Below are positions 8,105-54,380 of a stretch of 64,000 bases of DNA, in pieces. Made by a program: the position numbers and the translations under genes. This DNA is from a virus: positions 1 through 64,000 of IMG/VR virus record IMGVR_UViG_3300035182_002586; one strand, given 5' to 3'. The notes under the pieces were generated by a model that worked only from the letters and a program-made list of their open reading frames with translations, had not been told where the DNA came from and searched no databases. The stretch's first letter is position 1, and each line of letters starts with the position of its first letter.

Positions 8105-8434
8105 TCAGAGCGCGGGCTCCTCAGCCAAGTGGTCCCACGCGGTCTTCTGCGGCTCTTCGATCGTGGCTCGCCACCAGATCCGAGTCATCTCCGGTTCGAT
8201 GCCGTCGAGATCGAGGTTGTCCCCCTCGTCCGCGCTGAGCACGAACACGTCGGTGCCCACGGGGAAGGTGGAGATCGGAGCGATGTCATCGGGGTCGAGG
8301 TCCATCGTGATGAGACCCCCCTGCCCCTCATCGCACATCTTGTAGATACTCGCGGGGACCACTTCGGTCTCGGGGCCGAGGGTCGTCGGGCGGGTGTCGT
8401 TCGGGATGGAGCAAGCGTAGCGGACAACGGCCAT
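8105..8434 (-). CDS. Unknown protein with C-terminal Trp motif (109 aa)
   Basis: Starts MAVVRYACSIPND; mostly beta-rich. It ends PQKTAWDHLAEEPAL, one of six C-termini in this window that share P-x-S/T-x-W-D/E-H/R-L/I plus acidic residues. Leaderless start 8 nt after a TGTA element. Divergent from the gene at 8478. Confidence 0.8.
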   Translation of the reverse strand: MAVVRYACSIPNDTRPTTLGPETEVVPASIYKMCDEGQGGLITMDLDPDDIAPISTFPVGTDVFVLSADEGDNLDLDGIEPEMTRIWWRATIEEPQKTAWDHLAEEPAL

Positions 8435-8442
8435 ACCCCCAC

Positions 8443-8447
8443 TACAT
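8443..8447 (-). promoter_or_regulatory. ATGTA promoter element (weak variant)
   Basis: AATGTAGTGGGGG on the minus strand, 8 nt before the ATG at 8434. It differs from the consensus in the first two bases. Confidence 0.45.
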
Positions 8448-8477
8448 TGCGAGGGCTTTGATGATCCATCCTAAGAT

Positions 8478-8855
8478 ATGCCGCTTCGGGACTACGGGAG
8501 CGAGTACGCACGTGCCTGTGTGGTGTGGGCCGATGGTCGCGTAGGCGTCGGACCCTGGCGTGAGCCCCTCGACGCGAAAGCCGAGGTCGCCGTCCTGGCT
8601 CGCTCACCTCGAATCCGGCACGTGTGGCTGGAGAGCGAGTCGGACCTGGCAGCCGGTCAAGCCCGTGCCGAGCTGGAAGAAGACGGGTACGTGTCGGCCA
8701 AGGGCTTTCGGGGCCTCGTGCGGATCAGCACGAACCTCCGCTCTGAGGTGGATCTGCCGGACGACGTGTTCTCCCTGCAAGAAGAGCCCGAGTGGGACGA
8801 CGAGCACACGTGGGAGGAAGTCACCGACGACGGGATCGAACGCCCGGAGGAGTGA
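8478..8855 (+). CDS. Unknown acidic protein (125 aa)
   Basis: Starts MPLRDYGSEYAR and ends in a strongly acidic tail. No family recognised. No Shine-Dalgarno sequence and no clean GGTGTA element; TAAGAT lies directly before the ATG. First of three plus-strand genes (8478, 8876, 9292). Confidence 0.75.
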   Translation: MPLRDYGSEYARACVVWADGRVGVGPWREPLDAKAEVAVLARSPRIRHVWLESESDLAAGQARAELEEDGYVSAKGFRGLVRISTNLRSEVDLPDDVFSLQEEPEWDDEHTWEEVTDDGIERPEE

Positions 8856-8858
8856 CTT

Positions 8859-8864
8859 GGTGTA
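8859..8864 (+). promoter_or_regulatory. GGTGTA leaderless promoter element
   Basis: TTGGTGTAGAAG, 11 nt before the GTG at 8876 and immediately after the stop of the preceding gene. Confidence 0.6.
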
Positions 8865-8875
8865 GAAGCCCCGAC

Positions 8876-9295
8876 GTGGCGTTCAACACCTTGTGGCCGC
8901 AACCGGAGCCGGAACCTCCGCCTACCTTGTGGGCGCTGGTCCTCGAAGACCCTTTCGGCCCCCCACCGCCCCCGCTACCACCCCCACCCCCAGACCCTCG
9001 TTTCGGCGTGGCCGGCATCCGTGACCCCGACGCCCCCTGCCACATGTTCGACGACTCAGGATGGGGCCCGAAAAACGGGGACTGTGATACGGACGGACAC
9101 TACCTCTGCGATGAATGCTCCCACATGTCGTTGCGGACGTACCGAGAGCGCCACGAGAAGTGCACCCTCTGCGGGATCCCCCTGGTCTGTGCCCCCTGGA
9201 GTCGTGAGCCGAGCATGTGCCCCTTCTGCGATGAAGAGTGGCTCGCGAAAGAGAGTGCCCGTCACCAGCAGGCCCGTCTGAAGGTGGTCCGATGA
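8876..9295 (+). CDS. Proline-rich zinc-knuckle protein (139 aa)
   Basis: The start is the GTG at 8876 (reads M/V-AFNTLWPQ), placed by the GGTGTA element 11 nt upstream; a longer frame runs back into the previous gene. The N-terminal third is proline-rich with runs of five prolines. The C-terminal half has three CxxC knuckles (CDEC, CTLC, CPFC) with His residues between them, like a RING or double zinc ribbon. Possible protein- or nucleic-acid-binding adaptor. Confidence 0.8.
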   Translation: MAFNTLWPQPEPEPPPTLWALVLEDPFGPPPPPLPPPPPDPRFGVAGIRDPDAPCHMFDDSGWGPKNGDCDTDGHYLCDECSHMSLRTYRERHEKCTLCGIPLVCAPWSREPSMCPFCDEEWLAKESARHQQARLKVVR

Positions 9296-9603
9296 CGCCC
9301 TACATCCCGCCTGACGGTCAGACCACGATCCACGACAACAACGTGACGCAGACCTGCACCATCTCCCTCACAGCTACGGCCGCGACGACGAACCCCATCG
9401 TTCTCACGTACCCTGCGGACCCCATCGACCCTCCGTGGCCCCGCAACCGTAGCGACCGCCTCATCTTGAAGTCCCTCAAGGAAGCGGGCATCGTGGCCGC
9501 CGTCCGCCGGGCGGAATCTCTCTTCGGTCCCCGGAAGCTGGCTTCCGACCCCTCCGCCTGGAACGCCCGGTTCTGGTCGATGTTGCAGCGCCGTCGCCCC
9601 TGA
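9292..9603 (+). CDS. Unknown protein (103 aa)
   Basis: The ATG overlaps the upstream TGA (ATGA), so translation is coupled to the zinc-knuckle gene. The N-terminal half is Thr-rich and beta-like. The C-terminal half is basic (LFGPRKLASD, ending QRRRP). No family recognised. Confidence 0.7.
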   Translation: MTPYIPPDGQTTIHDNNVTQTCTISLTATAATTNPIVLTYPADPIDPPWPRNRSDRLILKSLKEAGIVAAVRRAESLFGPRKLASDPSAWNARFWSMLQRRRP

Positions 9604-9611
9604 CACAGAAT

Positions 9612-9773
9612 CTAGGGGTCGAAGTAGAGCCGCCCCAGCGGTCCACCCGTAAGGCTCCGGCGTCCAAGAGCGAACAACCCAGTAGCAGCACCGGACAACA
9701 CGTGGGGCCCCGTCTTGCCGGAGAGCGCGGGGCCTTCGACGCTAGCCCTTCTATCGAAATCCTCCTGGTGCAT
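9612..9773 (-). CDS. Possible small ORF (53 aa), doubtful
   Basis: An open frame (MHQEDFDRRAS...) that fills the otherwise empty 9604-9771 interval. Its ATG shares the palindromic CATG with the first possible topoisomerase start. No promoter element lies upstream and codon bias is unremarkable. If it is not a gene, this stretch holds nothing I recognise. Confidence 0.3.
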   Translation of the reverse strand: MHQEDFDRRASVEGPALSGKTGPHVLSGAATGLFALGRRSLTGGPLGRLYFDP

Positions 9774-10671
9774 GGCCCCCGGAATGGTTCTTCGAGTTGC
9801 TGCCCGGTTCCAGGTTGAAAACCAGGAGGGGCGGGTACGGCTTGCAGCTAAGTACAAGGGCAAGACAGTTTCCGAAGAAGGGAACGTCATCTACCAGTAC
9901 AGTGAACGGCAGATCGCACTCCGCAACAAGGCGAAGGCCGAGAAAATCGAGGGCCTGAAAAGGCACATCGGTGACCTTCGGGCGACCGTCAAGAAAGATC
10001 TCCGCTCGGAAGATCCCGAGACGATGTTGACAGCACTCGCGGTGGCCTTGATGGACCACACGTTCGAGAGAGTCGGCAACGAGGAGTCAGCCAAGGACGG
10101 GCACGTTGGAGTGACTGGCTGGGCAAAAAAGCACATCAGCTTCGGCAAAAAAGTCACCGTCAGGTACGTCGGAAAGTCCGGCGTGAAGCACACAAAAGAG
10201 ATTACAGACGCGGGCCTAAAGAAGGCGCTCCGTGACGCCTATGAAGCGGTCGATGGGGACAACGAAAGCATCTTCTCGTGGGACGGCGGAAAGGTAACGG
10301 CCGAGAAGGTCAACGCCTACTTGGAGGAGTTTGGCATCACTGCGAAGGACATCCGAGGCTTCCACGCGAATGACACGATGCACGAGGCCCTACGAGCTGC
10401 ACGCAAAGCAGGCGGAAAGCTCCCCGAGGACAAGAAAGCTAGGGAGAAGCAACTCAAGGAGGAGTTCAAGAAAGCTCTCGAAGAGACGGCGGATGTCGTC
10501 GGCCACGAGCCTGCGACCCTCCGTTCACAGTACTTGGTCCCGGGGCTAGAGTCGGACTACCTACGGGACGGTACGATAACGGACTCTTTCATCAAGTCCT
10601 CTTCCAGTCTTGCAGCACGCGTCGTCGACCGTTATCTTAGGGTGCATGAAGTGGGTGATCTACGTCCTTGA
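9772..10671 (+). CDS. DNA topoisomerase IB
   Basis: A type IB topoisomerase relaxes supercoils through a 3'-phosphotyrosine intermediate. From the ATG at 9772 (299 aa) the catalytic set can be placed by analogy with the poxvirus enzyme: Arg100 in FERVGNEE, Lys135 in VGKSG, Arg195 in IRGFHAND, His245 in VGHEPATLRSQY and nucleophile Tyr254. The His-to-Tyr spacing of nine is the same as in vaccinia. The N-terminus carries the VLRVAARF motif also seen in two other proteins here. An alternative ATG at 9784 would start exactly at that motif. The end overlaps the GIY-YIG gene by 26 nt. Confidence 0.88.
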   Translation: MAPGMVLRVAARFQVENQEGRVRLAAKYKGKTVSEEGNVIYQYSERQIALRNKAKAEKIEGLKRHIGDLRATVKKDLRSEDPETMLTALAVALMDHTFERVGNEESAKDGHVGVTGWAKKHISFGKKVTVRYVGKSGVKHTKEITDAGLKKALRDAYEAVDGDNESIFSWDGGKVTAEKVNAYLEEFGITAKDIRGFHANDTMHEALRAARKAGGKLPEDKKAREKQLKEEFKKALEETADVVGHEPATLRSQYLVPGLESDYLRDGTITDSFIKSSSSLAARVVDRYLRVHEVGDLRP

Positions 10672-11376
10672 GGATCCGCGTCCGGTACGTAGGAGTGACC
10701 CACCAAGAACCTAAGAAGCGGCTTCTCAATCATCTATCCCGAGCCCGAAAGGGTGCTCGTTACCATCTGTTCAACTGGATCCGAAAACTGCTAACGGAAG
10801 GCGTCGAGCCTACTTTGCGGGTAATCGAAACCGGGTCTGGGGACGGGTGGGGCGAGGCCGAGGCCAAGTGGATTACACGGCACCGCCTTCAAGGGTGTGC
10901 CCTCACGAACGCTACGGATGGAGGTGAGGGTTGCCCCGGGCATACGGTATCCGACGAAGCTCGCGCAAAGATCCGTGCTGCTCGTTTGGGGAAGCCTCTG
11001 ACAGAAGAACACAAGGCGAAGGTGGCTGCTGGTAACCGAGGGAAGAAGATGTCCCCGGAATCCATCGCTAGGGGCGTCGATAAGCGACGGGGGCTCAAGC
11101 ACACACCAGAAGCTAAAGCGAAGATCTCCGCCTCACGTAAAGGGGGGGAAAGGGTGGAAGCCTACCCCCGAGCAACTCGCTCAACGGGCCGAAGCTATCA
11201 AGACAGCCCTGGCGGCGAAACGTGCCTCCGGTTGGGTCAGACCCCCTGTGAGCAAGGAAGCGTGCGAAAAGATCAGTGCCTCTAAGAAAGGGTGGAAGCC
11301 TACCCCCGAGGCAAGAGCACGGATGTCTGCCGCGAGGCGACAACGGGACGCTTCACGCAAGACCGACCCGGTGTAG
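10646..11376 (+). pseudogene. GIY-YIG/NUMOD3-type homing endonuclease, broken by two frame breaks
   Basis: The gene begins at the ATG at 10646 (MKWVIYVLEDPR), a GIY-YIG N-terminus. The family then expects RYVGVT, which lies in the next frame, so a frame change is needed near 10680. The central part continues with NUMOD3-like repeats (ARAKIRAARLGKP, AKISASRKG). At a run of seven G (11142-11148) the frame breaks again, and dropping one G restores GKGWKPTPEQ and further repeats down to the TAG at 11374-11376. Each break needs one extra base removed (731 nt, minus 2, is 243 codons). The longest intact piece is 10668-11285. It sits directly after the topoisomerase gene, as expected for an inserted homing gene. 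Either a decayed gene or sequencing indels. Confidence 0.75.
11370..11375 (+). promoter_or_regulatory. GGTGTA promoter element overlapping a stop codon
   Basis: CCGGTGTAGATG, 10 nt before the ATG at 11386. Its TAG ends the GIY-YIG frame. GAGGGGG follows, so both leaderless and Shine-Dalgarno starts are possible. Confidence 0.55.
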
Positions 11377-11385
11377 ATGAGGGGG

Positions 11386-11961: not shown

Positions 11962-11965
11962 GAAG

Positions 11966-11994
11966 TCCCCGGTGAGCCCCCAACTCACCGGGGA
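11966..11994. terminator. Bidirectional terminator-like hairpin
   Basis: A perfect 11-bp stem (TCCCCGGTGAG / CTCACCGGGGA) with a 7-nt loop in the 40-nt gap between convergent genes ending at 11961 and 12002. There is no T-tract on either side, so it may be a hairpin that protects mRNA ends rather than an intrinsic terminator. Confidence 0.6.
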
Positions 11995-12001
11995 TCCAGA
12001 C

Positions 12002-13237: not shown

Positions 13238-13295
13238 GGCGCCTCTCATAGGTGGGTCCCCGCGCCCCCTGTGGATGCGGCCACGTGATTCTGTG

Positions 13296-13329: not shown

Positions 13330-13890
13330 ATGCTCACGAAGAACGCTGTCAAGGCTGTCCGCGCGTACGAGAAGGCAACCCCAGATCGGGATGTCGCCCG
13401 TGCCCGAGTCACCGAAGGACACGTGACGCCTGGCCCCTACCTGGCCCTACCTCTCATCGGATGGCTCGCGCAGGTGGGAGGAGCACGCTTCCTCAGCCTC
13501 GGAATGGCGCTCATCCGCATCTCGGACAACTCGCCCGTCGGAAGTCTCGGGTGGGCCATCCCGTTCGGACCGAGAACGGACGAGACCTGTGCAAACGTCC
13601 TCGCAGCTCTCGGGTGGGACGGCCGCATCTGGCCCACGAACCCCGGCTGGCCGACGGGCACCGACCGAGAGGAGGCGATCCGCACGATGCTCGACGAGGC
13701 CAACCTCGGCAACGCGATCGTCTTCCCTCCGGATGAGACGCGTGGCGCCCCGGCCGTGCGCATCAATGTCCTTGCGAGTTCGGGCCCCTTCACCCTGGAC
13801 CCGTCTTGCGTGGGGGCTGCCAACGTCCCGGAGAGCTGGAAGCAGCGCCTTTGGGCGCTCGTCTCCGACCCCGCTTGGTTCCAGCGCTAG
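13330..13890 (+). CDS. Unknown protein (186 aa)
   Basis: The start at 13330 (MLTKNAVKAVRAY) is set by the promoter spacing; a longer frame would run through the promoter. Mixed alpha/beta with a Trp/Pro-rich centre (WDGRIWPTNPGWP). No family recognised. Convergent with the next gene, sharing a CTAG stop overlap (13887-13890). Confidence 0.75.
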   Translation: MLTKNAVKAVRAYEKATPDRDVARARVTEGHVTPGPYLALPLIGWLAQVGGARFLSLGMALIRISDNSPVGSLGWAIPFGPRTDETCANVLAALGWDGRIWPTNPGWPTGTDREEAIRTMLDEANLGNAIVFPPDETRGAPAVRINVLASSGPFTLDPSCVGAANVPESWKQRLWALVSDPAWFQR

Positions 13891-14423
13891 AAGCCCTCTT
13901 CGAGGATCCGATCCCATAGGGTGGGTGGGAGTGTCTTCTCTTGCGGCTTCTCCTGCGGAGTCAACGTGAACCCCGTGAGGGGCACCGCGGTGAACGGCGC
14001 CACTTCCCGCTGCTCCGTGAAGAACGGTTCGGCAGGGACGAGAACCAACCGCACTTCGTCCCGCGGGCTGAGCACGTCTTGGATGTGGCGCACCTCGCGG
14101 ACGATGTGAAGCACAGGCTCGTCATCCCCGTTCAGACGAAGAGCCACGCCGTCCAGGGGCCGCAGGTTGAACAACCTGGGGATCATACGGCCATCGATGA
14201 TGATATCCCCACCACGGTCGGACATGCGAGACTCTACGGTGAGGACCCCCGCTGACCCGAAGGACACGTCCGGGGGAACCCCCGGTTCATCCTCTGCGCT
14301 GAGGCTGTCTTCCAGTGCGTTCGCGATCCGCACCGCTTCACCGTGCTGCGCGAAGTCAGCCTCACCTCGAAGTAGGTCGAGAAGGAACCGCGCCGTGTCC
14401 TCGGCCAGCGTGATCGTCGGCAC
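13887..14423 (-). CDS. Unknown protein with C-terminal Trp motif (178 aa)
   Basis: Starts with GTG (M/V-PTITLAEDTAR), 10 nt after a TTGTA element. Mostly beta-rich. It ends PPTLWDRILEEGF, a member of the shared C-terminal tryptophan set, preceded by a Pro/Gln/Lys-rich linker (EKPQEKT). Divergent from 14489, whose product carries the same kind of C-terminus. Confidence 0.8.
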   Translation of the reverse strand: MPTITLAEDTARFLLDLLRGEADFAQHGEAVRIANALEDSLSAEDEPGVPPDVSFGSAGVLTVESRMSDRGGDIIIDGRMIPRLFNLRPLDGVALRLNGDDEPVLHIVREVRHIQDVLSPRDEVRLVLVPAEPFFTEQREVAPFTAVPLTGFTLTPQEKPQEKTLPPTLWDRILEEGF

Positions 14424-14488: not shown

Positions 14489-15139
14489 ATGGACGCAGCA
14501 TCCCTCGCACAGTTGTACGCCGAGCTGAGCCCACTTCTCCAGGAAGTGTCTCTTCGGATGCGGCCGTTCGAGGAGGCCGTCACGGTCCCTGACAGTGGGA
14601 CGGGGATGGCCGACAACTACAGCTACATCATGTCGGGGCCCGACGAGGTGTACCTCGGTGTCTACGAGATCCTCCACAAGGTCGCCCCGGCTGGCAGGAG
14701 TGCCCGAGGGAAGACGGCCGCCAAGTGGGAGAAGACGGGCCGACACGCCCTCTTCCTGTCTGCGCTGAACCTCCCCCGGAAGACCTATCACCAGCTCTCG
14801 GACGGCACATTCCCCCTCGAACGCGTCGTGACCGAAGCTCAACGGGTCATCCTCCGTCAGCGTAAGGATCGGGTCGAGGCCGAGCAGCGGCGGCGCCACA
14901 AGCAGAACTACACGGAGGTGGCTACCCGCTTGGCCAAACAGTTCCACCTCGACGACTCCGACGTGGATTGCCTCACCACTGGAAGGCCCGAAGGGGTCGA
15001 GCTGTCCTTCACGGGGCTCTCTGAGGATCGAGCACGACAGCTTCTCTCCCTGGCGCGTCAGGCGGGCTTCATCCAGAGACCACACGAACAGAAGACGCCC
15101 CTCCCCTCCATGTGGGACCACTTGCTGGACGAGAGCTGA
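14489..15139 (+). CDS. Unknown protein with C-terminal Trp motif (216 aa)
   Basis: Starts MDAASLAQLYAEL; helical, with a basic central segment (RQRKDRVEAEQRRRHK) that could bind nucleic acid. It ends PLPSMWDHLLDES, close to the end of the next gene product. The TGA overlaps the next ATG (TGATG). No family recognised. Confidence 0.8.
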   Translation: MDAASLAQLYAELSPLLQEVSLRMRPFEEAVTVPDSGTGMADNYSYIMSGPDEVYLGVYEILHKVAPAGRSARGKTAAKWEKTGRHALFLSALNLPRKTYHQLSDGTFPLERVVTEAQRVILRQRKDRVEAEQRRRHKQNYTEVATRLAKQFHLDDSDVDCLTTGRPEGVELSFTGLSEDRARQLLSLARQAGFIQRPHEQKTPLPSMWDHLLDES

Positions 15140-15576
15140 TGCCCCACAAGCTCAACCCAACGCAGCTCGATGTACTGTCCGTCTTGGACTGGCTGATGGA
15201 TCGATCCACGGACGCACGAGGTACGGGACGCACGTACGTCACAGCCATCGCTTGCATCCGCGCTGCGTGTCGGAACCCCTCGCAGTGGATCAGCGTGCAC
15301 GACTACCAGACGGCAGACCTACGCGCGCACCGACATCTCTTCGGCGTGATCATGGGGCTGATCCACGAGGACACCAACACGTATCACGGGCACCCCCTTG
15401 CGCGATGGGTGCGGGAGGAGGGGCACGGTCACATGTTCGTCCTTGACCTGCCTGCGCCCGTAGAGGACTGGTTGCCTGTGGGGGCGGTGGACATCTCCAT
15501 GATCCGGCTACCGCCCTCGGGACCGCCCCCATCCCCGACTGCGTGGGAGCACCTTCTCGACGAGGGTGCGATCTAG
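15139..15576 (+). CDS. Unknown protein with C-terminal Trp motif (145 aa)
   Basis: The start at 15139 (MPHKLNPTQLDV) overlaps the upstream stop. A helical N-terminus is followed by a His-rich middle. It ends PSPTAWEHLLDEGAI. Its TAG stop is shared within CTAG with the convergent Dam gene (15573-15576). Adjacent genes with the same C-terminal motif suggest a shared partner rather than gene duplication, since the bodies do not look alike. Confidence 0.8.
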   Translation: MPHKLNPTQLDVLSVLDWLMDRSTDARGTGRTYVTAIACIRAACRNPSQWISVHDYQTADLRAHRHLFGVIMGLIHEDTNTYHGHPLARWVREEGHGHMFVLDLPAPVEDWLPVGAVDISMIRLPPSGPPPSPTAWEHLLDEGAI

Positions 15577-16613: not shown

Positions 16614-17849
16614 TCATGTGTCTTCCTCGATGTCGAGCCAGGCTTCCTTGGGCATATCCGTGGTGTTTCGGACCCGTTGGATGCGCTGTGTGATGAGGTC
16701 CCGGTAGTCCCCGTTGACCTCGATCCCGAGATAGTCCCGGCCAAGGCTGAGGGCCTCTGCACCCGTCGTCCCACTCCCCATGAACGGATCGAGCACGAGG
16801 CACGGCACAGGGTCGCCAGCATCACACTTGCAGGTAGGCGCCCACCCGATCGTGACGGACAAGGGTTCGTCCCCCTCCTCAACCTCCAGGGGCCTTTCGA
16901 CAACACGCTTCCAGGGCGCTCGACACTTCGGGCACGCCCCCTTCTCGCTCGTTCCGGCACGGATGCATCGTGCCGGCAGCTCCGGGGGAAAGACCGCGAA
17001 GTGCGCCCCCTTGTACGGCTGAGAGAAGATCGTCCAGACCGAGCGACTGTTGCGGCCCAAGGGGTTCGGCCCGTGGGTCGCCCTGGACCCTTCGTGGGGG
17101 TGCTGTCCGGGAGGGTTGTACGACCCCCCTCGGGTCTGGTCGTGGTAGTTCTTCCCCCGGAACGACTCCCGAATGGCGTCCGCATCGTAGAAGTAGTGAC
17201 GGCTCTTCGCGAGAAGGAAGATCTGCTCGTGGGCCTTCGTCGGACGGTCGATGACGCTCTCCGGCATCGCGTTGGGCTTCTCCCAGATGATTTCCTGCCG
17301 CAGGTACCACCCGTCCTTGCGAAGCGCGAGAGCGAGCATCCAGGGGATCCCGAGGAGGTCCTTGGCCTTGAACTCCCTCTCGGCCGCCTGAGCCTTCTTC
17401 ATCGGCTGTACGGCGCTGTCCCCGATGTTGAGCCAGAAGGTCCCGTCCGCGCGGAGAACACGCCGCAGCTCCCGAAAGACCTCGACCATGTGCTCGACGT
17501 ACGCTTCCGGGGTTGGCTCCAGACCAAGCTGGCCGTACCAGGCGCCGCACTGGACGCACGTGAGAGTCGTGGCCGTCTGCCCCTTGCCGGCGGCCTGAGC
17601 CGTCTTCCACTTCGTCTGCTCGACCTGGCCGGGATGATGGGGCCCGTTCTCTTTGACCTCCCCGTGCTCACAATCGGGGTTGCCACCCCCGAACCAGTGT
17701 CGGGTCCCGTAGTCCCGCAGACCGTAGTAGGGAGGGCTTGTCACGCACGTCTGGACGTACTCGTCCGGAAGCATACGAAGCACGTCGAGGACGTCACCAA
17801 AGACAACGTGAACCTGATCGGGCTCGAACGTAGGGGCCGTTTTCGTCAC
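16614..17849 (-). CDS. DNA methyltransferase, SPPY class (N4-C or N6-A)
   Basis: A 411-aa methyltransferase of the circularly permuted beta type: catalytic TSPPYYGLRDYG lies near residue 38 and SAM-binding LDPFMGSGTTGAEA near residue 350. Between them is a long target-recognition region with two Cys pairs (CVQC and CPKC) and a CKCD, suggesting zinc. The SPPY motif is compatible with N4-cytosine or N6-adenine products. It starts with GTG 12 nt after GGTGTA. No restriction endonuclease gene is visible nearby, so it is probably a solitary protective methylase. Confidence 0.88.
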   Translation of the reverse strand: MTKTAPTFEPDQVHVVFGDVLDVLRMLPDEYVQTCVTSPPYYGLRDYGTRHWFGGGNPDCEHGEVKENGPHHPGQVEQTKWKTAQAAGKGQTATTLTCVQCGAWYGQLGLEPTPEAYVEHMVEVFRELRRVLRADGTFWLNIGDSAVQPMKKAQAAEREFKAKDLLGIPWMLALALRKDGWYLRQEIIWEKPNAMPESVIDRPTKAHEQIFLLAKSRHYFYDADAIRESFRGKNYHDQTRGGSYNPPGQHPHEGSRATHGPNPLGRNSRSVWTIFSQPYKGAHFAVFPPELPARCIRAGTSEKGACPKCRAPWKRVVERPLEVEEGDEPLSVTIGWAPTCKCDAGDPVPCLVLDPFMGSGTTGAEALSLGRDYLGIEVNGDYRDLITQRIQRVRNTTDMPKEAWLDIEEDT

Positions 17850-20383: not shown

Positions 20384-21046
20384 TCAGGTAGGAGGTCTCT
20401 TGATCTTTGCAGCCTCCCTCTTTTTCCGTAGGGAGACTTCCCGCACCACTTCGGAGTACGGGTTGAGCAGGTAGAGCCCACCTGGAGCAGTCACCTCGTA
20501 AACGAGGTTGGCCCGCCACCCGTTTGCGTCGAGTGCATCCCACACACGCCCCCGGGCTTCCCACTCGCGAGCACTGATGTTCCTCGGGCGGTCGGTGTTG
20601 TTCCAGTAGGCGAAGTCGACGACCCTTGGATCTCGACGTAGGAACGAGAAAACGTCCCCCCACATGGAATCCTTCCGCTTCACGCCGAAGGGCATCCCCC
20701 GATGCGGGATGATGTAGATCTCTTTCTTGTACTCGCGAAAGACGAGAGACGCAGAGAAGTCGAAGGGGTTGTTCTCAGCCGAACCGAGCTGACCCAGGTA
20801 CCCTTTGATCATCTTCATATCGGCGAACCCGAGGCGAGCCAGTTCCTCGTCTTTCTCTACGTAAGAAGACGTCTTGTACTTCTGGTACTCGTCACTCGAC
20901 GTGTCGATGTTCGACGCGAGGCCCACGAGCACCTTCTTGAGGATCGTCTTCGCCGCCAGCTCAGCCTTCTGCTGCACATCACGCACGAAGGGCCAGAGAT
21001 CCTTCGCGTTCACCATCTTGTAGGCTTCGTACACCTTCGTGCTCAC
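20384..21046 (-). CDS. Unknown protein (220 aa)
   Basis: Starts MSTKVYEAYKMVNA. Mixed fold with an aromatic, charged centre (REYKKEIYIIPHRG) and a basic end (RKKREAAKIKR). The ATG overlaps the stop of the upstream BtpA-like gene (ATGA, 21043-21046), so the two are translationally coupled and may work together. No family recognised. Confidence 0.8.
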   Translation of the reverse strand: MSTKVYEAYKMVNAKDLWPFVRDVQQKAELAAKTILKKVLVGLASNIDTSSDEYQKYKTSSYVEKDEELARLGFADMKMIKGYLGQLGSAENNPFDFSASLVFREYKKEIYIIPHRGMPFGVKRKDSMWGDVFSFLRRDPRVVDFAYWNNTDRPRNISAREWEARGRVWDALDANGWRANLVYEVTAPGGLYLLNPYSEVVREVSLRKKREAAKIKRPPT

Positions 21047-24975: not shown

Positions 24976-25670
24976 GCTGCCTTCCCTCGTATGTGACGGA
25001 GCCCCAAGCGCTTGTACCCACCGTCCAGGGCCTCCTCGTGCCCCATGTACGCGTGATCGGCGTGGTCGAGGAACTCCGGCTTGTGGGTCACCAGCAGTAC
25101 ATCTACACCCATCGAGGCGCACAGGCGTTGCAGGAAGCGACCCGTGGCCTCGACGTACTCCGCCGAGATGGCAGGGAGGGTCTCGTCTAGCAGTAAGAGG
25201 GGGGCCCGTCCGAGGCGACGGAGCGCGAAGACCCGCAGGAACAGCGAGACGATGGTGGACGGCCCCCCACCGAAAGCATCGAGGGGGTTGTCCTTGATGA
25301 CCAGCGCGTCCTTGCCCTGCTTGAGGAACAGGTCCATCTCGACGCGGTTGGCCCGCTGGACGACCTCAGCCTCGAACGAGAGTTCCTGGTCGTGGAAGAT
25401 GGCCTCCAGGCCCTCGGTGACCAGGCCCTCTACGATGGCCTTCTGCTTCTCGACGAGCTTGTCCATCAGCGAGCGAAACAGCTCGCTGACCATGGTGAGC
25501 TTGGTGGCCTTACTTTGAAGCGTGGCCACCTCTACACGACGGCTCTCGGTCTCTGTTTCCAGTCGGTCCCGAAGGGTGCGGTGGCGGGCAGCAGTCTCCC
25601 GCAACGCACGCACCCTCGGACCGAAGCTGGAAGTCAGTCCATCGACGGCGTGAACCGCGTCACCCGGCAT
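24972..25670 (-). CDS. SbcC/Rad50-like ATPase, C-terminal half
   Basis: A 232-aa protein carrying the second half of an ABC-type ATPase head: a helical lead-in (20-95), signature-like DAFGGGPSTIVSLF at residues 131-144, Walker B LLLLDET at 158-164 and the H-loop LVTHK near 193. There is no Walker A. The matching N-terminal half (Walker A and zinc hook) is encoded separately at 29230-30624. The two would have to assemble to form one ATP site. The ATG at 25670 is preceded by AGGGA and overlaps the end of the clamp gene by 37 nt. Confidence 0.85.
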   Translation of the reverse strand: MPGDAVHAVDGLTSSFGPRVRALRETAARHRTLRDRLETETESRRVEVATLQSKATKLTMVSELFRSLMDKLVEKQKAIVEGLVTEGLEAIFHDQELSFEAEVVQRANRVEMDLFLKQGKDALVIKDNPLDAFGGGPSTIVSLFLRVFALRRLGRAPLLLLDETLPAISAEYVEATGRFLQRLCASMGVDVLLVTHKPEFLDHADHAYMGHEEALDGGYKRLGLRHIRGKAA

Positions 25671-26956
25671 TCGTACGTCCCTTCGGGCTTCTTCTCCCCG
25701 CCCGCGCCCACGGCGAGGCGGTTGTCACTGTCGACGAGGTACGTGTCGATCGTGCGGAACATCGCGCGTTCCTTCGACTGCTTCTCGTCAGCCGGGCGAA
25801 CGTGGATGCGCAGCTCAACCTCCTCGGCCTTCGCGCCGTCGAAGAGCGAGATCATGTTGTCGATGTTGACGTTGAAGGCGAAGTCGCGCGGCTCCGAGAG
25901 GACGATCATGTTGTCGTCGATCTGGACCGGCCTCGTGCGCCCCTTGTCCTTGCTCTCGTTGACGTAGAAACGCAGCGACTTCTCCGCCGCCGACCAGCTC
26001 AGACGGATCTTCTTGGCGTCCTTGTTGAGCGTGGCCTTCGTGTACCGGAGCACGGCGAGGATCTTGTCGCGGTTGACGCGCAGAACCCACTGGTCGGTCT
26101 TGAGCCCGTAGTAGCTGAACTTGCCGTGCGTCTTGAGGTGGTGCGTCCACCCGATGACGTGCGTGCGTCCCGGGCGAGGCTCCGGAGGGGTCTCGCCCTC
26201 CTTGACCACGGGCGCGGGGGCCAGCTCCTCAGAGAGGGCGAAGATCTTGTTGCGGTTCGTCTTGAACGTGACCTTCCCCTTCACCTTCGAGAGGAAGTTC
26301 ATCAGGTGGCTGAGGTGCTTCCCGTGGACAGCCAGCCCCAAGTTCGCCGAGGCGAACGCGTCCGAGTAGAAGTAGAACGCCTGGCGGGCGTTCGAGGCGA
26401 AGAGAGTGCCCTTCCCCTTCTCCCACTCGGGCTTGCTCTCGTCGAAGATCTGGAGCGTCTTGAAGTTGTCCTCGGCCTTCTCGTCGTCGGCCTTCGCGAG
26501 GAAGTTCTTCGACAGGGCGATGGCGTCGCGGAGGATCTCGACGGAGAAGTCGCGGCCCTCTGCGGCCTCTTCCAGCTCCTTGTCGAGGGACGCCATCAGC
26601 TTCGGGTCGAACGCGATCATCTCGCGGTCGTCGCCGCTAGAGGTCGAGTAGGACACGACGTACTGTCCGTTGTCGTCCTTGGCGGTGAACGTGATCTCCT
26701 CCCCGTCGAGGTACTTGAACGGCTCGATCGACGCCGACGGGTAGATGAACGCACCCTCACCCTCGACCTCGATGAGGGCGACTTGGGCTCGGGTCGTGTG
26801 CATGCTGTCCTGTGAGTAGATGGAGAGCATCTCCCCACGCACGACGAACAGGTAGCCGGCGGCCCCCTGCGCGTTCACGGGACGCGGTTGGACGATAGAG
26901 ACGATTTCGAGGGCGTCCTTGAGCTTCGACGCGTCCAGCTTGAATCTGATGTTCAT
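25634..26956 (-). CDS. DnaN-like sliding clamp
   Basis: A 440-aa protein whose start (FKLDASKLKDALEIVSIV) and repeated beta-alpha-beta pattern resemble the bacterial beta clamp, which tethers polymerase to DNA. It is longer than the usual ~370 aa because of charged insertions (about 125-190 and 245-270). The C-terminal strand ECRVTRFTPSMD replaces the usual MPMRL-type ending. Context supports it: it lies between recombination nuclease genes. No DNA polymerase or clamp loader is in the window. The assignment is moderate. Confidence 0.6.
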   Translation of the reverse strand: MNIRFKLDASKLKDALEIVSIVQPRPVNAQGAAGYLFVVRGEMLSIYSQDSMHTTRAQVALIEVEGEGAFIYPSASIEPFKYLDGEEITFTAKDDNGQYVVSYSTSSGDDREMIAFDPKLMASLDKELEEAAEGRDFSVEILRDAIALSKNFLAKADDEKAEDNFKTLQIFDESKPEWEKGKGTLFASNARQAFYFYSDAFASANLGLAVHGKHLSHLMNFLSKVKGKVTFKTNRNKIFALSEELAPAPVVKEGETPPEPRPGRTHVIGWTHHLKTHGKFSYYGLKTDQWVLRVNRDKILAVLRYTKATLNKDAKKIRLSWSAAEKSLRFYVNESKDKGRTRPVQIDDNMIVLSEPRDFAFNVNIDNMISLFDGAKAEEVELRIHVRPADEKQSKERAMFRTIDTYLVDSDNRLAVGAGGEKKPEGTYECRVTRFTPSMD

Positions 26957-28279: not shown

Positions 28280-28280
28280 C

Positions 28281-40435: not shown

Positions 40436-40579
40436 ATGCTACGTCCCACAGAGGTGGTGTGCCCACACCGAGTGTACACCATCGTGCGGGCTCTGCACGT
40501 CCCACGGAAGCGCATCGAAAGAAGTGCGAATGCTGCATTCTTCCTATGCCGTGGGATCATCAAGAGACCACGATGCTGA
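40436..40579 (+). CDS. Possible small ORF (47 aa), doubtful
   Basis: An open frame starting MLRPTEVVCPHRVY and ending with a TGA that overlaps the next ATG (40573). The overlap is typical of real genes here, but codon bias is weak and there is no promoter element. The same interval contains an outward GGTGTA copy and a GAATG-CTG-CATTC palindrome near 40527. Confidence 0.25.
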   Translation: MLRPTEVVCPHRVYTIVRALHVPRKRIERSANAAFFLCRGIIKRPRC

Positions 40580-41040
40580 TCGACCTGACGAGAAGGATCC
40601 CAACGATCCTCTACGACGTGGAACCCACCCTCGTCGTCGTTCGCGTCCTCTCGATCGACGAGAGCCCTGCATGGGTCCGAGAGACCGGTGACGGAGTTGT
40701 CGACGGGCTCCTGACGCCCACCCTCTGGTCTTCCGGCAAGGGCAAGTCAACTTGGGCGCACCACGTCGTGCCTGCTCCCGGAAACCGAGATGAGCTGCTG
40801 ACCTACGAATGCACGACCATGCGGTTCGAGGTTGAACCCCCTCCCCAAGACGGCCCGATGATGCCCTGGGACGGGTTCGTGTCCATAGAGATGCTGACCA
40901 CCGAGTTCCACCGGGTGATCATCACGGGCCCCGATGGACTTGAGTGTCAGTGCCGCGTGAAGAATCTCTCGACGTTGGCCTCCGACGACAACGAGCCCCG
41001 CATGTCACTGTGGGAAAGACTAGGTAATTCAGACGCTTGA
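40573..41040 (+). CDS. Unknown protein with C-terminal Trp motif (155 aa)
   Basis: The start at 40573 (MLIDLTRRIPTIL) is the first in-frame ATG with a coding body behind it. Beta-rich domain (TLVVVRVLSIDES, TMRFEVEPPPQDG). It ends PRMSLWERLGNSDA, a member of the C-terminal tryptophan set. No family recognised. Confidence 0.75.
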   Translation: MLIDLTRRIPTILYDVEPTLVVVRVLSIDESPAWVRETGDGVVDGLLTPTLWSSGKGKSTWAHHVVPAPGNRDELLTYECTTMRFEVEPPPQDGPMMPWDGFVSIEMLTTEFHRVIITGPDGLECQCRVKNLSTLASDDNEPRMSLWERLGNSDA

Positions 41041-45789: not shown

Positions 45790-46314
45790 CTAGTCGTCGT
45801 CTTCTTCTGCATCGCCTTCATCCTCCAGTATCCGGTCGATCTGCTCGTAGGGGTCTGTGATCGGAGCGGGGCGTTGCCGCGCTTCCTCCGCCCTCTTCGT
45901 GATCTCACCCACGGTCACCAGGGGACGACGTACATCGACTCGTACAAGACCTCGCGCGAACTGGCCCGCGAGCACTTCACCGACGGAGAGCCTGAGGTCG
46001 GGGTTGACGAATACCGCCGAGGTCCGCCCCCCGATCGTCGTCGGAACGAAGTCGTACAGGGGGCGAAGTGGCTCCCCCTCGCGGAGAAGCGTGACGAAGG
46101 CCCCGTGCTTGATCTTTGAGGTCAAGTGCAAGATGGGCCAGTCTGCGGGGAGGTCCGCGACGATAGCGCACAGGTCGGGGTTGCGATCCGAATTCGACCT
46201 GATCTCGACGTAGCCCTGTACCGTCTCTACGGAGGCCACCCCCGTTCGACGATCGACGTGGCGGACAACCCCGCGCCGACCCTCGAAGTCGATGAGTTCC
46301 CCCGCTTTCAGCAT
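45790..46314 (-). CDS. Unknown protein (174 aa)
   Basis: Beta-rich: starts MLKAGELIDFEGRRGVVRHV, an SH3/KOW-like barrel pattern. The end is acidic (YEQIDRILEDEGD...), a loose echo of the tryptophan C-terminal motif without the Trp. The start overlaps the upstream gene by 7 nt. Confidence 0.75.
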   Translation of the reverse strand: MLKAGELIDFEGRRGVVRHVDRRTGVASVETVQGYVEIRSNSDRNPDLCAIVADLPADWPILHLTSKIKHGAFVTLLREGEPLRPLYDFVPTTIGGRTSAVFVNPDLRLSVGEVLAGQFARGLVRVDVRRPLVTVGEITKRAEEARQRPAPITDPYEQIDRILEDEGDAEEDDD

Positions 46315-49813: not shown

Positions 49814-49882
49814 GGGAGGTTTCTGCCTTGTTCCTTATGTCGAGATGCGCTCTCGGCCGGCGCCTCGGAAGTCGAGGTCGAT

Positions 49883-50719: not shown

Positions 50720-50729
50720 GAACAGCATA

Positions 50730-50735
50730 TACACC
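50730..50735 (-). promoter_or_regulatory. GGTGTA leaderless promoter element
   Basis: CTGGTGTATATG on the minus strand, 10 nt before the ATG at 50719. Confidence 0.6.
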
Positions 50736-50763
50736 AGATCTACGACCCTCAGGACGAGAAACC

Positions 50764-51399
50764 CTACCGCATGAGGGCGGTGGGCTCACGATCCACACGG
50801 GGCCCGAGCACAGCCGACTGGAAGGCGTCGGCAACCCTCATGGCGGTGACCGACACGGTTTCCAAGGGGTGCTCCTCCCCCTTACCGCAAGAACCGCTGC
50901 ACTGGCCACCGCAAGAACCGCTGCACTGGCCACCACAAGTACCCGTACACGACCCCCCGCAAGTGCAACCACCCTCACAGGCGTGCAGGTACCTCGCAAG
51001 CACCCGGTGAGCTGTCTTCGACTCACTCTTGTACTGCACGGGTGTAGAGGCGGGAGCCATGGCTTCCTCCCCACCCTCGACGGAAGGGTCGCGGGTATCG
51101 TACGTGTGGTAGCGGTCTCCTTGGTAGTCGAGCAAGGGGACGGTCCGTGCGAGCGCCTCTCCCAACCAACGGGCGATGTCACTCGTCCCGAGGGGGAAAG
51201 ATCCGTCGACCATCGCACTCATGTGGGAGAACGAGTACTCGAACCGGTAGGACCTCGACACGGGCTCCAGCGTCGGCAAGTTCATCAGCGTAGCAGGGTC
51301 CCAAACCATCGCCTCCTCGACAATACGAAGAGTCAGCCCCCCGTTCCCCGTGTGGAAGTAGGACTCTTCGAGGACGCGTCGGGTGCGTTCAGTGCCCAT
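50764..51399 (-). CDS. Protein with central Gly/Cys repeat (211 aa)
   Basis: Starts MGTERTRRVLEES. Residues about 140-172 are a Cys/Gly/Ser-rich insert (CTCGGSC, then CGGQCSGSC twice), likely a metal-binding segment. The first half is alpha/beta. It is downstream of the terminase paralog (8-nt gap), so it belongs to the packaging/virion transcript by position. Function unknown. Confidence 0.75.
   Translation of the reverse strand: MGTERTRRVLEESYFHTGNGGLTLRIVEEAMVWDPATLMNLPTLEPVSRSYRFEYSFSHMSAMVDGSFPLGTSDIARWLGEALARTVPLLDYQGDRYHTYDTRDPSVEGGEEAMAPASTPVQYKSESKTAHRVLARYLHACEGGCTCGGSCTGTCGGQCSGSCGGQCSGSCGKGEEHPLETVSVTAMRVADAFQSAVLGPRVDREPTALMR
50885..50932. repeat. Two 24-bp direct repeats in the Cys-rich gene
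   Basis: Two perfect tandem copies of a 24-bp unit, in frame, encoding the repeat of Cys-Gly-Gly-Gln-Cys-Ser-Gly-Ser. Further, diverged copies follow. Expansion by slippage is likely. Confidence 0.85.
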
Positions 51400-51406
51400 G
51401 GGTCCC

Positions 51407-52297
51407 TCAGGCCGCTACGGCGCGTTTGGAGACGGGCAGGAACTCTGACCCGTACTCGTTCATGAAGCGGAGCAGCCCACCCTGGTCGAGGATGTCCTGG
51501 TAGAACGTGCCCGGGACCGTGGGGTTCATCTCCCACGTGCAAAGGCGCACCGAAGTGGAGATACGGTCCAGCTTCTCGTTGAAGAATCGGTAGAACTGCC
51601 CCTGCTTCTCCCCAGCGCTGGACAGGGCGACCATCGAGGGGCCGGGAAGGCTTGACCCCACCACCGAAGGAAGCACAGCCTGGTAGAGGTCGGTACCACC
51701 ATCGTCGTGGTAGTACGCCATCTCGTCGAAGAGGACGAAGCTGTGCCGCACCCCGCAGAGACCCTTGAACCCGGCTGAACGCACCGTGATTCTCACGGAC
51801 GAGTTGTGGGTCTTGCAACCGCACACACAGTGGTTGGGGCTCGGGATCTGGATGGAGGAGGTCGTCTCCTGCGAGGGGGTGACGTGGCCCTCACGGACCG
51901 CCTTGCGGACCCCTTTCATCATGGTCTGAGCCATGGCGCGGTCGATCGTGAACCCGGCCACCGTCATCGCGCCGGGGTCCCGCTCCGCCTGCGCGAGTGC
52001 CGCCATCGCACGCTGGTAGAGCAGACGTGCCCCGAGGTAGGACTTGCCCGACCGGCGACCCGCTGCGAGGGCAACGAGTTGCTCCTCCGAGTTCACCTCA
52101 CGGGTGTTGGAGCGCCCCTCGTCGTAGAGGTAGACGAGGAAGTCCTTCTCCGTGAACAACCGCACGCGTCCGGTCAGGGGATGGGTGAACTCGACCCGAT
52201 CCGTATCTGACAGAGGAACCCCGTCCAGTACTTTCAAGGCGAATCGCTGACCGGGGTAGAGAGGGTACGCCCTCTCCGCGTGCTCGATGGTGTTCAT
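51407..52297 (-). CDS. Terminase large subunit paralog, ATPase domain only
   Basis: A 296-aa protein starting MNTIEHAERAYPLYPGQRF. It matches the N-terminal half of TerL (61177-63204) in order: YLYDEGRSNTRE, Walker A AAGRRSGKS at residues 78-86, Walker B FVLFDEMAYY (Asp191, Glu192), and the coupling segment GEKQGQFYRFFNEK followed by a TWEMNP stretch. The RNase H-like nuclease domain is entirely missing and the protein ends normally soon after. It also has an extra Cys cluster (CVCGCKTH, ~157-163) that TerL lacks. Probably a duplicated motor domain with a new role. Confidence 0.85.
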   Translation of the reverse strand: MNTIEHAERAYPLYPGQRFALKVLDGVPLSDTDRVEFTHPLTGRVRLFTEKDFLVYLYDEGRSNTREVNSEEQLVALAAGRRSGKSYLGARLLYQRAMAALAQAERDPGAMTVAGFTIDRAMAQTMMKGVRKAVREGHVTPSQETTSSIQIPSPNHCVCGCKTHNSSVRITVRSAGFKGLCGVRHSFVLFDEMAYYHDDGGTDLYQAVLPSVVGSSLPGPSMVALSSAGEKQGQFYRFFNEKLDRISTSVRLCTWEMNPTVPGTFYQDILDQGGLLRFMNEYGSEFLPVSKRAVAA

Positions 52298-52307
52298 GCA
52301 GAAGGTC

Positions 52308-53165
52308 TCAGTGCCAGACGGAGTGGTGAACGTCGTAGTCCACCTTGTTGCTCTTGAGCCAATCACTGAACTTGGCCCAGGCGATCGACTTGAGGGCGCC
52401 CGGGTTCTCCTTGAGGAGCTTGTAGAGCTTGCGAGCGCTCGTCGGCTTGCCCTCGTAGAGCGTGTAGTGAGGGTCACCGCTGTGGCCCATGTCGGAGTCC
52501 GGCGAGTAAGCGGACCACTTCGTCCACTCGATGTGGACCGTGAAGTCCTTGCCCTCGGCGTTGAACGGGTCGACGTTCTCCGGAGTCACCTCCAGGAAGT
52601 AGACCTGCTGCTCCCACCAAGAGGTGCGACGAAGGAAGTCCCACGACCCAGGCTTGACGCCCTGGATCGCGTCGGCCTTCTTGATCACCTCGTCGGCAGC
52701 GTCCGCCATCCCCTGGCTGACCTTTTCCTTCACCTGGTCGTAGGTATCCGACGCGGAGATGTGCTGCCTCCGGATGATGTTGTCCGGAATGAAGGCGTCG
52801 AAGTTACCGTGCTGGCTGAAGTGCAGGTTGGTCTGCACCGTCGCGACACGGAGCTTGCGCTTGCCCTTCATCGGCAGCTCTTCCAGCTTCCACTGGTCGT
52901 GCGTCCACGAGAGGCGGAAGTCCTTGCCGACGAGCTTGCCGTCCCACGAGCCCTGGAGGAACTTCGCTGCGACGCGGACCGCTGCCCCACCGTTCGTGAG
53001 CCCCGACGCTTGCTTCGTCAGGTACTCGTCCTGGTGGCAGGAGTCCGAGCCCGGGTTGACGTTCTTGCAGTAGATCGACCATGCGGTCGCCCATGCCTGC
53101 TCGTCCGAGTAGGACGGGTTGCCTTCCTTCACTTCCTTGAAGTAGTCGTCGACAGGCTTCGGCAT
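52308..53165 (-). CDS. Putative virion protein (285 aa)
   Basis: MPKPVDDYFKEVKEGN start; the N-terminal domain with two conserved-looking cysteines (IYCKN, DSCHQD) recalls a small domain found at the N-terminus of several phage structural proteins. An internal VRVAAKFLQG resembles the RVAARF motif of neighbours. The C-terminal part has a helix-rich segment (ARKLYKLLKEN). Virion assignment is by position and resemblance. Confidence 0.65.
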   Translation of the reverse strand: MPKPVDDYFKEVKEGNPSYSDEQAWATAWSIYCKNVNPGSDSCHQDEYLTKQASGLTNGGAAVRVAAKFLQGSWDGKLVGKDFRLSWTHDQWKLEELPMKGKRKLRVATVQTNLHFSQHGNFDAFIPDNIIRRQHISASDTYDQVKEKVSQGMADAADEVIKKADAIQGVKPGSWDFLRRTSWWEQQVYFLEVTPENVDPFNAEGKDFTVHIEWTKWSAYSPDSDMGHSGDPHYTLYEGKPTSARKLYKLLKENPGALKSIAWAKFSDWLKSNKVDYDVHHSVWH

Positions 53166-53205
53166 GGTGTGGGCTCCTATGGGGCACCCGCGATAAACAC
53201 TTCCG

Positions 53206-53865
53206 TTAGTGCAAATGACGCCCCCAGCTCGGGGCCGAGGTCGGATCGAAGGCCGTATCCTGCATGTCCACGAAGTTCGGCCAGTCGACGCCAGGCACGA
53301 CAAGCGCGATCTGGTAGCGCCAACGCTTGACCCCGTGCTCGTGGCCGGGCCCTAGGCGCTCCGCCACGTACCCGAACACATAGGACACGGAATCCTCGTG
53401 GTAGGGCTTCCGCAGCCGAACCCACGCACCCTCAGGAAGCTGCGGCTTCTCTGGCTCAACCTTCCGTCTTGCACCGGGCACCTCGACCCACTTGTGCACG
53501 AGGGCGGGCACGGTCGTGAACCCACTCTCAAGGGAGGCGTTCGTCCTGTGGATCCCGTCGTCGATGTGCAGTCTCCCCTCGTGCTCTGTGAGCTGTACGG
53601 GGGGCAGAGCCACACCGGCTGCGATCGCTGCCCGGACCTTCTCAATCCGGTCCTTGTGCCACACAGGGGGCACGCTGATGTGCGAGAGGGGCACCAGCTC
53701 GAACCGATACTCGTTGTGCCCTCCGAACTCCGCGTCCGACTCGGCCCTGGCCTCAGGGTTGTTGAGGGTGTGGAGCTGCGCGTGTACGACGCCTTCGTCG
53801 TAGCGGTAGTGCGTCGTCGACGCGACGAACCGCGCGGCAACCCGGAGGGCCAGCGGGGGCATCAC
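53206..53865 (-). CDS. ParB/sulfiredoxin-like domain protein with RVAARF start
   Basis: A 219-aa protein. N-terminus MMPPLALRVAARF carries the short recurring motif. Residues about 60-125 match the ParB-like fold: LSHISVPPVWHKDRIEKV, AAGVALPPVQLT, and IDDGIHRTNASLESGF (the DG-x-HR motif). ParB-like proteins bind nucleotides and some are nucleases or kinases. Downstream is a long beta domain. The two neighbours upstream carry a related N-terminus. Confidence 0.75.
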   Translation of the reverse strand: MMPPLALRVAARFVASTTHYRYDEGVVHAQLHTLNNPEARAESDAEFGGHNEYRFELVPLSHISVPPVWHKDRIEKVRAAIAAGVALPPVQLTEHEGRLHIDDGIHRTNASLESGFTTVPALVHKWVEVPGARRKVEPEKPQLPEGAWVRLRKPYHEDSVSYVFGYVAERLGPGHEHGVKRWRYQIALVVPGVDWPNFVDMQDTAFDPTSAPSWGRHLH

Positions 53866-54131
53866 ACGTCGTCGGAGCGGAGGAGGTATTCGAGGCCCTC
53901 CTTGATGGACTTCACGAGCGCTTCGACACCCTCGTGGGTCGACTCCACCTGGTCGATCATCCAGTCGAGGGACTGCTCGGTGTGGAGCGTACGCGCGTGC
54001 TGGAGCGCCTTGTGGAGCGCAGCGTCAGCCACACGCAGCTCGGCGAGCATCGCCTTGGCGTTCCCCTCGATGTGAGGGTCCATCTGACGGCGGGCGTAGC
54101 GGTTGGCGACCTTCGAGGCGAGGGGGTCCAT
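53862..54131 (-). CDS. Helical protein with KVANRY start (89 aa)
   Basis: MDPLASKVANRYARRQ opens with a variant of the RVAARF motif; the rest is two long helices. Overlaps the ParB-like gene by 4 nt. Shares operon position with ClpX and the portal. No family recognised. Confidence 0.75.
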   Translation of the reverse strand: MDPLASKVANRYARRQMDPHIEGNAKAMLAELRVADAALHKALQHARTLHTEQSLDWMIDQVESTHEGVEALVKSIKEGLEYLLRSDDV

Positions 54132-54164
54132 ACCCCGAAGCCCCTGATAAAAGGATCGGGCGCG

Positions 54165-54380
54165 CTAGAGGTCTTCTTCTCCGAGCCGTTCCCATGCGGA
54201 AGGGGCTGAAACGGACTCGACGGAAGGCTCGGGAGGGGAGGCCGCCAAGAGAGCTTCGGCAGCCTCACGCTGACGGTTGGCCTCCGTGATCAGGTCGTTG
54301 GCCAGCTCGTCTGCCGCTTGGACCACTTCCGGCCGCACGAACGACAGGTCCCCGTAGCCAGAAGTGTTGTACCCGAGCAT
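54165..54380 (-). CDS. Possible second part of a split protein, C-terminal Trp motif (71 aa)
   Basis: Starts MLGYNTSGYGDLSFV, which resembles the interior of a larger phage protein family ending in -QLIGYSLSGYGELSYV-type sequence. The ATG follows directly in frame after TGA-TAG at the end of the 55-aa gene. It ends APSAWERLGEEDL, a member of the C-terminal tryptophan set. Probably expressed by termination-reinitiation, or by read-through to make a 128-residue product. Confidence 0.7.
   Translation of the reverse strand: MLGYNTSGYGDLSFVRPEVVQAADELANDLITEANRQREAAEALLAASPPEPSVESVSAPSAWERLGEEDL

Follow-up and report, generated by a model that had tools for sequence, protein, structure and literature searches.

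A tryptophan tag, mostly at C-termini, on unrelated small proteins of giant tailed phages and its reading as a probable docking peptide

Positions 1 to 64,000 of the IMG/VR virus record IMGVR_UViG_3300035182_002586 (the window, 64,000 nucleotides, 64% G+C, G000:C1:1-64000 of the 528,957-bp record called G000 here) carry six genes whose unrelated products end in the same short tryptophan-centred peptide, hereafter the tag. Judged by its gene content, the source of the window is a giant tailed phage, because it encodes a large terminase, a portal protein, an NAD ligase, a RecD-like helicase, a UvsX-like recombinase and ClpX; no tRNA gene was found across positions 1-64,000. On the sequence evidence, the tag is probably, at roughly three chances in four, a portable docking peptide (short linear motif) for a common partner that is likely to be phage-encoded itself. 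It would be composed of a proline-rich lead, a short capped helix [S/T/D/N]-[L/A/V]-W-[D/E]-[H/R]-[L/V/I] and usually an acidic tail. Through it, numerous small and mutually unrelated accessory proteins would reach one partner, as would a protein kinase in some phages. No description of the motif or of such a tag system was found in a literature search that had most subscription papers and all bioRxiv preprints outside its scope.

All six tagged ends listed in the initial annotation are present in the window (Table 1). The six reading frames are all picked by a codon-usage gene caller, which prefers a start at 14558 for the 14489-15139 gene, and their products show no mutual match (blastp, 1e-4), so that the objection that they form a single family finds no support. 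The Trp-less echo also listed at the end of the 45790-46314 product is indeed there, as a single case. The product of 6550-6858 (GWEQISGFAGDEG) fits a loose pattern, but it was left out because its G008 relative keeps the stretch with His replacing Trp.

Beyond the window, G000 was sampled as 11 stretches (nine around DNA-pattern matches, two without) that cover about half of the record and hold 349 complete genes called by the same simple codon-usage method. Relatives were collected by terminase alignment against IMG/VR (180 relatives, best 80 kept); the G000 terminase itself shares 42% identity with its counterpart in an uncultured 485-kb phage and 29% with that of Tunturiibacter phage Tunturi_5. 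Stretches were sampled from G001 and G002, then from G005, G006, G008, G011, G012, G013, G015 and G018. Eight records were scored as tag-bearing, G006 from one tag among 34 C-terminal ends, and five (G009, G010, G011, G014 and G015) as tag-poor.

The tag is concentrated at protein ends. Over the 86 genes of the window, W[DE][RH][LIVM] occurs six times within 16 residues of the C-terminus and twice at 17,657 other positions (Fisher 3e-6, a p-value flattered by the pattern having been taken from the same data). The C-terminal enrichment expected from the initial annotation is borne out across 11 partly sampled genomes, where the strict motif is found 34 times in the last 20 residues and twice elsewhere (126-fold). 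In a relaxed form, the tag has 34 C-terminal and two internal copies across eight tag-bearing genomes (212,882 residues), against one C-terminal and no internal copy in six other genomes (183,929 residues). In G000, W[DE][RHKQ][LIVM] lies near the end 20 times and elsewhere seven times, a ratio inflated by the nine stretches picked around matches; the strict motif is absent from the two control stretches, L011 and L012. At the DNA level, W[DE][HQR][LIVMF] plus a stop-like triplet returns 41 rows over the whole G000 record and 34 in a backwards control, which by itself is no enrichment. Only the share of in-frame stops speaks for the tag: the 41 rows correspond to 35 distinct sites, at 20 of which an in-frame stop falls within the match, against an expected share of about one third, and 14 of these 20 were judged tag-like by eye. 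The pattern W[DE][HR]Lx[DE][DE] is matched 42 times in related records (in 12 of 30) and twice in the backwards control, a count that includes the near-copies G018/G030 and G007/G008 and does not demand an end position; a looser pattern without H/R is matched 125 times, against 37 in the control (31 records).

The tag also emerges when gapped residue triples are counted, without a target pattern, over the last 16 residues: it ranks first in G000, G001, G005, G012 and G018. The signal is strongest in G018, with LWxH in 22 of 156 C-termini and at two internal positions (p 1e-35), and weaker in G002 (p 1e-7). Altogether, this rediscovery is clear in five of 14 genomes and weaker in two more. The G008 triples (p 1e-6 to 4e-5) do not rise above chance triples of tag-free genomes, such as one with p 8e-7 in G009, and the G008 case rests on the tags themselves, not on the triple count.

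A logo built from 91 ends with W[DE]x[LIVM] in seven genomes, a few of them probably chance, shows Pro at positions -5 and -4, Lys or Pro at -3, Thr (38), Ser (25), Asp (6) or Asn (6) at -2, Leu (44) at -1, the Trp, and Asp (52) or Glu (39) at +1; these are followed by His (44) or Arg (24), by Leu (59), Val (16) or Ile (14), and then mostly by acids. Under the rules of helix capping, the -2 residues can be read as helix caps and the +1 acid as that of a capping box, from which we infer that the tag is helical. Phosphorylation of the Ser or Thr before the Trp was also considered; helix capping is favoured because Asp and Asn occur at the same place. A search for solved structures resembling the tag gave two matches, taken as chance (dihydroorotase, E 0.13; EAF1, E 1.5).

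The proteins that bear the tag have little else in common. In the sampled half of G000, 20 proteins were counted as tagged, with ends of the form [WY]-[DET]-[RHK]-[LIV] followed mostly by acids, a number reached by dropping poor fits and adding three variants by eye; no pair among the 20 matches (blastp, 1e-4). Scanned for known families, 95 tagged or tag-like proteins yielded three PHROG and six Pfam families with one member each in a set of 39 (E 0.01), three of the six Pfam families being zinc-finger models, and two PHROG but no Pfam families in a set of 56 (E 0.001). A weak Cas4c match is the only defence family among the 39. Tagged proteins are small (median 119 aa versus 137 aa) and nearly all orphan, and CxxC is found in 20 of 91 tagged bodies versus 101 of 888 others (p 0.007). 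Where tags have the same residue at the same place, codon identity is close to the prediction from codon usage (observed/expected 0.428/0.417 in G000, 0.447/0.402 in G018, 0.299/0.281 in G012 and 0.483/0.420 in G001), which indicates that the likeness of the tags is kept as protein and not copied as DNA.

Some tagged relatives between genomes retain the tag in the form of the local phage. Residues 5-114 of the 15139-15576 product, a region outside its tag, match two G012 proteins that are both tagged themselves (KTLWERLEED and KTVWERLQEDIPED (TVWERLQEDIPED)). A weaker match, 31% over 84 residues with the tag included, links a G000 protein ending in YDRLIGDEDL to a G002 protein ending in HRRLMGDDEY. 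A few tagged paralogues exist inside genomes other than G000. Two tagged G018 proteins match untagged proteins along part of their length, and tags are thus gained or lost as well.

Rare internal copies of the tag led to a protein kinase family, phrog_3043, in which a tag-like insert is found at 10 of 12 loci in viral contigs, or in eight of 10 distinct proteins after collapsing those above 90% identity; the kinases of L198 and L199 have none. The insert occupies one of three places (Table 1), two of which, the beta2-beta3 turn and the activation segment, were named from the alignment and general kinase landmarks. In L194, the gene directly before the kinase ends in GGFFDHLTAES, the same dialect as the GGFFEQLEADD held by the kinase itself, and in L192 a nearby gene ends in GLWAALEDEDDL. 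The family keeps the motif and not its place, which fits a docking peptide and misfits a signal needing a free C-terminus. An additional scan of viral contigs for F-variants matched 47 stretches, two of them on contigs from the kinase scan. Two side observations concern the same loci. By eye, the kinases of L192, L198 and L174 have a DnaJ-like (HPD) N-terminus, and a PurA-like gene (GDEGKG), which could be a phage PurZ, lies directly upstream of the kinase in G018, G012, G008 and G016 (L170, L171, L172 and L173).

The form of the tag varies from phage to phage (Table 1), and G001 and G002, although terminase sisters with full support, use different dialects. Because dialects differ even between such sisters, the tag can be presumed to bind a partner that is single and phage-encoded. 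As far as sequence can tell, the part of the initial annotation that proposed a short linear motif with a shared partner is well supported by the enrichment, the unrelated bodies, the dialects and the three sites in the kinase family, while its description as a C-terminal signal does not hold as such, since the kinase copies are N-terminal or in loops.

Table 1. Tags, tag-like inserts, dialects and related features in the window and in related phages (window coordinates where positions are given)
Feature	Position	Strand	Sequence, form or basis
Tag and stop, 109-aa product of 8105-8434	8105..8146	-	KTAWDHLAEEPAL
Tag and stop, 178-aa product of 13887-14423	13887..13928	-	PPTLWDRILEEGF
Tag and stop, 216-aa (or 193-aa, start 14558) product of 14489-15139	15101..15139	+	LPSMWDHLLDES
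Tag and stop, 145-aa product of 15139-15576	15532..15576	+	SPTAWEHLLDEGAI
Tag and stop, 155-aa product of 40573-41040	40999..41040	+	RMSLWERLGNSDA
Tag and stop, 71-aa product of 54165-54380	54165..54206	-	APSAWERLGEEDL
174-aa product, Trp-less candidate echo IDRILEDEGD	45790..46314	-	IDRILEDEGDAEEDDD
Phage ClpX (C4 zinc finger, AAA domain, D2-small domain), putative partner	54555..55877	-	Pfam
Example tag, G000			KKTSLWDRLLGDEDL
Example tag, G018			KNKTLWDHLRET
By-eye variant, G000, on an 856-aa protein			LWTRLLDDDDVL
By-eye variant, G000			VYDRLIGDEDL
By-eye variant, G000			AWTRLLEEEA
N-terminal kinase insert, G008, its copy and G016			ATNAWEALMADDDG
Beta2-beta3 turn kinase insert, G012			RPTVWDRLLDEG
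Beta2-beta3 turn kinase insert, L194			GGFFEQLEADD
Beta2-beta3 turn kinase insert, L196 and L197			TRFDHILEDDD
Activation-segment kinase insert, G018			PTLYDYLTDD
Activation-segment kinase insert, L192			RSLYDLLDADD
Activation-segment kinase insert, L193			RPTAWARLMDEDD
Dialect, G001			K-[ST]-[VIL]-W-[DE]-H-[LM]
Dialect, G002			[AW]-x-R-L-M-x-D-D-E-Y and variants
Dialect, G005 and G018			T-L-W-[DE]-H-[LIV]
Dialect, G012			T-[AVL]-W-[DE]-R-[LI]
Dialect, G008			T-A-W-E-A-L and variants

Several observations weigh against the docking peptide. Relatives were sampled in part, and the stretches of tag-bearing genomes were partly chosen around matches, which inflates the counts. The tag-poor relatives belong to the same clade and have next to no tags in 68-184 C-termini each: the strict form is absent from the sampled C-termini of G009, G010, G011 and G014, a recount gave a single clear tag, in G015 (PKTLWELLDEDDE), and a single F-variant, in G009 (PTAFERLTED), and those G009 matches to the looser DNA pattern that lie in sampled stretches and genes are internal. 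The system would therefore be thin or absent in these five relatives, and the partner need not be the same one in every phage. At least three changes are required to place the tag labels, scored before the recount that found the G015 tag, on the terminase tree, and their clustering there is not clear (79 of 500 shuffles give a value as low). It was inspection by eye that first revealed the kinase inserts, and the pattern written later to admit A and F forms also matches once in the conserved body of the L195 kinase (RPNSAWDLVEE). With a mean pLDDT of 56.7 and 50.0, the two AlphaFold models are of low quality and agree weakly with a helical tag, with a low-confidence short helix on the 15139-15576 tag and coil on the kinase insert. 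No partner was found among the candidates examined, and none of the tagged families of known function beyond the kinase points to a cell location.

As to the nature of the partner, a component of the prohead core is our tentative first guess, because the capsid targeting sequence (CTS) of phage T4 is the nearest known precedent for one peptide on many divergent small proteins. The tag would then bind the prohead core and load dozens of small host-takeover proteins, and the kinase in some phages, to be packed and injected as the T4 internal proteins are. According to PMC9026906, the CTS of IPI, IPII and IPIII is likewise short and transplantable and sits on divergent accessory proteins of small size, and giant phages are described in PMC5694885 as ejecting many head proteins. 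The size and orphan character of the tagged proteins would suit such a role, one peptide is indeed found on unrelated small bodies, and a tagged gene of the same family lies inside a tRNA array in both G018 (L107:7999-8358) and G005 (L113:8943-9341). The T4-type prohead protease recognises [LI]-x-E as its cleavage signal; this sequence directly follows the core in seven of 20 G000 tags, or in nine of 20 if shifted by one. The CTS is N-terminal, removed by the prohead protease and restricted to few proteins, whereas the tag is mostly C-terminal or internal and found on at least 20 proteins, with N-terminal copies only in the G008 and G016 kinases and perhaps in G012 (L114:18678-19418). On position, the tag falls outside the CTS family. 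No clear tag was seen in the 22-kb terminase surroundings of the relatives read, while G000 has one, that of 54165-54380, about 3 kb from the portal gene. A partner of some other kind than those weighed here is about as likely as the prohead core.

The two partners named in the initial annotation are the sliding clamp, which has lost ground, and the phage ClpX, which stays a candidate. In character, the tag resembles most closely, among known systems, the clamp-binding C-termini of T4 gp43, gp55 and gp33, which PMC2988020 describes as short, hydrophobic and acidic, interchangeable, preceded by a variable linker and functional when internal. These epitopes sit on the polymerase and on transcription factors, whereas the tag is carried by small orphans and is missing from the end of the family A DNA polymerase in eight of eight genomes (internal polymerase copies were not looked for), which weakens the case for the clamp; family C was found in none of 10 records and family B in none of eight. 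The NAD ligase, RecD-like helicase, UvsX-like recombinase and exonuclease of the window, and also the DnaB-like helicase, end untagged as well, and the clamp candidate itself (25634-26956) was called weakly by PHROG (E 9e-4) and matched by neither Pfam nor NCBIfam. We consider the clamp, or another DNA-bound hub, unlikely. It is also improbable that tagged proteins are handed to the phage ClpX to be destroyed at a set time, or that the tag docks on the ClpX zinc domain like an adaptor tail. ClpX is present in all eight records scored tag-bearing and in 15 of 26 overall, the tagged gene 54165-54380 is the second after it, and tmRNA is found in two tag-bearing relatives, G018 (L107:3027-3406, ANDNAAPLAIAA) and G012 (L117:9879-10262, ANDNAIADQAIAA), which are thus giant phages with their own tmRNA and ClpX. 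However, ClpX is also present in four of the five tag-poor records. A C-degron of the ssrA type consists of fixed terminal residues at a free carboxyl end. The tag shares with it, and with ClpX adaptor tails, the short C-terminal peptide, but what follows its Trp differs from tag to tag in length and in the final residue, and internal copies exist, so that a free C-terminal degradation signal is weakened as a reading.

That a mobile 3' DNA cassette has spread across the genome, leaving the tag as a by-product, appears very improbable. Many copies do lie in neighbouring small genes (in one 20-kb stretch of G018, 23 reading frames end in the tag, with 47 called genes there), and codon identity exceeds expectation by 0.01 to 0.06, but this excess is small and the inserts sit at differing places within the kinase family. 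The C-terminal tip of single-stranded DNA-binding protein (SSB) is an acidic tail ending in Pro-Phe, an ending found in one of 20 G000 tags. Compared by description alone, nuclear import in chimalliviruses (PicA/Imp1) is similar in that cargo specificity varies by phage species, as the dialects do; the cargo is recognised there via a folded surface, with no terminal signal, according to PMC12908238. Two families were tried and rejected as the common partner: the kinase phrog_3043, present in six of 26 records and not in the tag-bearing G000, G001, G002, G005 and G006, and a GHKL-ATPase and HExxH family, present in 14 of 26 records, including the tag-poor G009 and G015, but not in the tag-bearing G001. 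Members of the latter (L011:2949-4397, L118:9951-11279 and L111:2692-4188) begin like a sacsin/GHKL-type ATPase (ELxQNAxD) and resemble an HExxH peptidase at the C-terminus. Among families recurring near tags in these partial genomes, a few were seen in tag-bearing genomes only, including that of window gene 20384-21046. This family of 219-220 aa is also represented in G001 and G012, its genes lie near a tag-bearing one in three of three cases and it has no NCBIfam match; none was seen in the sampled parts of tag-poor genomes. Promoter likeness shows no clear difference between tagged and other genes in five genomes (lowest p 0.05, in G012, tagged lower).

Other features were seen in passing. 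An OmpA domain (Pfam, 4e-20) lies at the C-terminus of the 598-aa product of window gene 967-2763. Elsewhere in G000, L004 (G000:138000-157999) holds 43 tRNA-like genes within 20 kb, the array being adjoined by a tagged gene (154970-155311), and an untagged 81-aa product (G000:328129-328374, in L006) ends in DEDDDIPF, like a bacterial SSB tip. ARAGORN calls four tRNAs with stop anticodons (two cta, one tca and one tta; L116:12558-12715, L119:17162-17234 and L003:5255-5329), which are suppressor candidates or artefacts. At L028:10522-13332, a 936-aa relative of DNA methyltransferases matches in three separate pieces only, with large inserts that are perhaps inteins.

Taken further, the docking peptide may be part of a proteome-wide address code, a view to which we give somewhat less than an even chance. 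One phage-made receptor would serve dozens of unrelated clients, each with a plug-in helix at any tolerant exposed place, and a private dialect would bar the proteins of a rival phage; new orphan genes would join once a tag had evolved at the 3' end. In giant phages, the majority of genes are orphans to which no role has been assigned; the tag would connect at least 20 of those in G000, and over 20 in the part of G018 that was sampled, with a single place or partner. It lets member proteins be recognised by sequence, and a single receptor, once found, would explain many orphan genes together. Co-evolution of motif and receptor between phages could also be tested on the tag, and proteins might be directed with it into a phage compartment or head.

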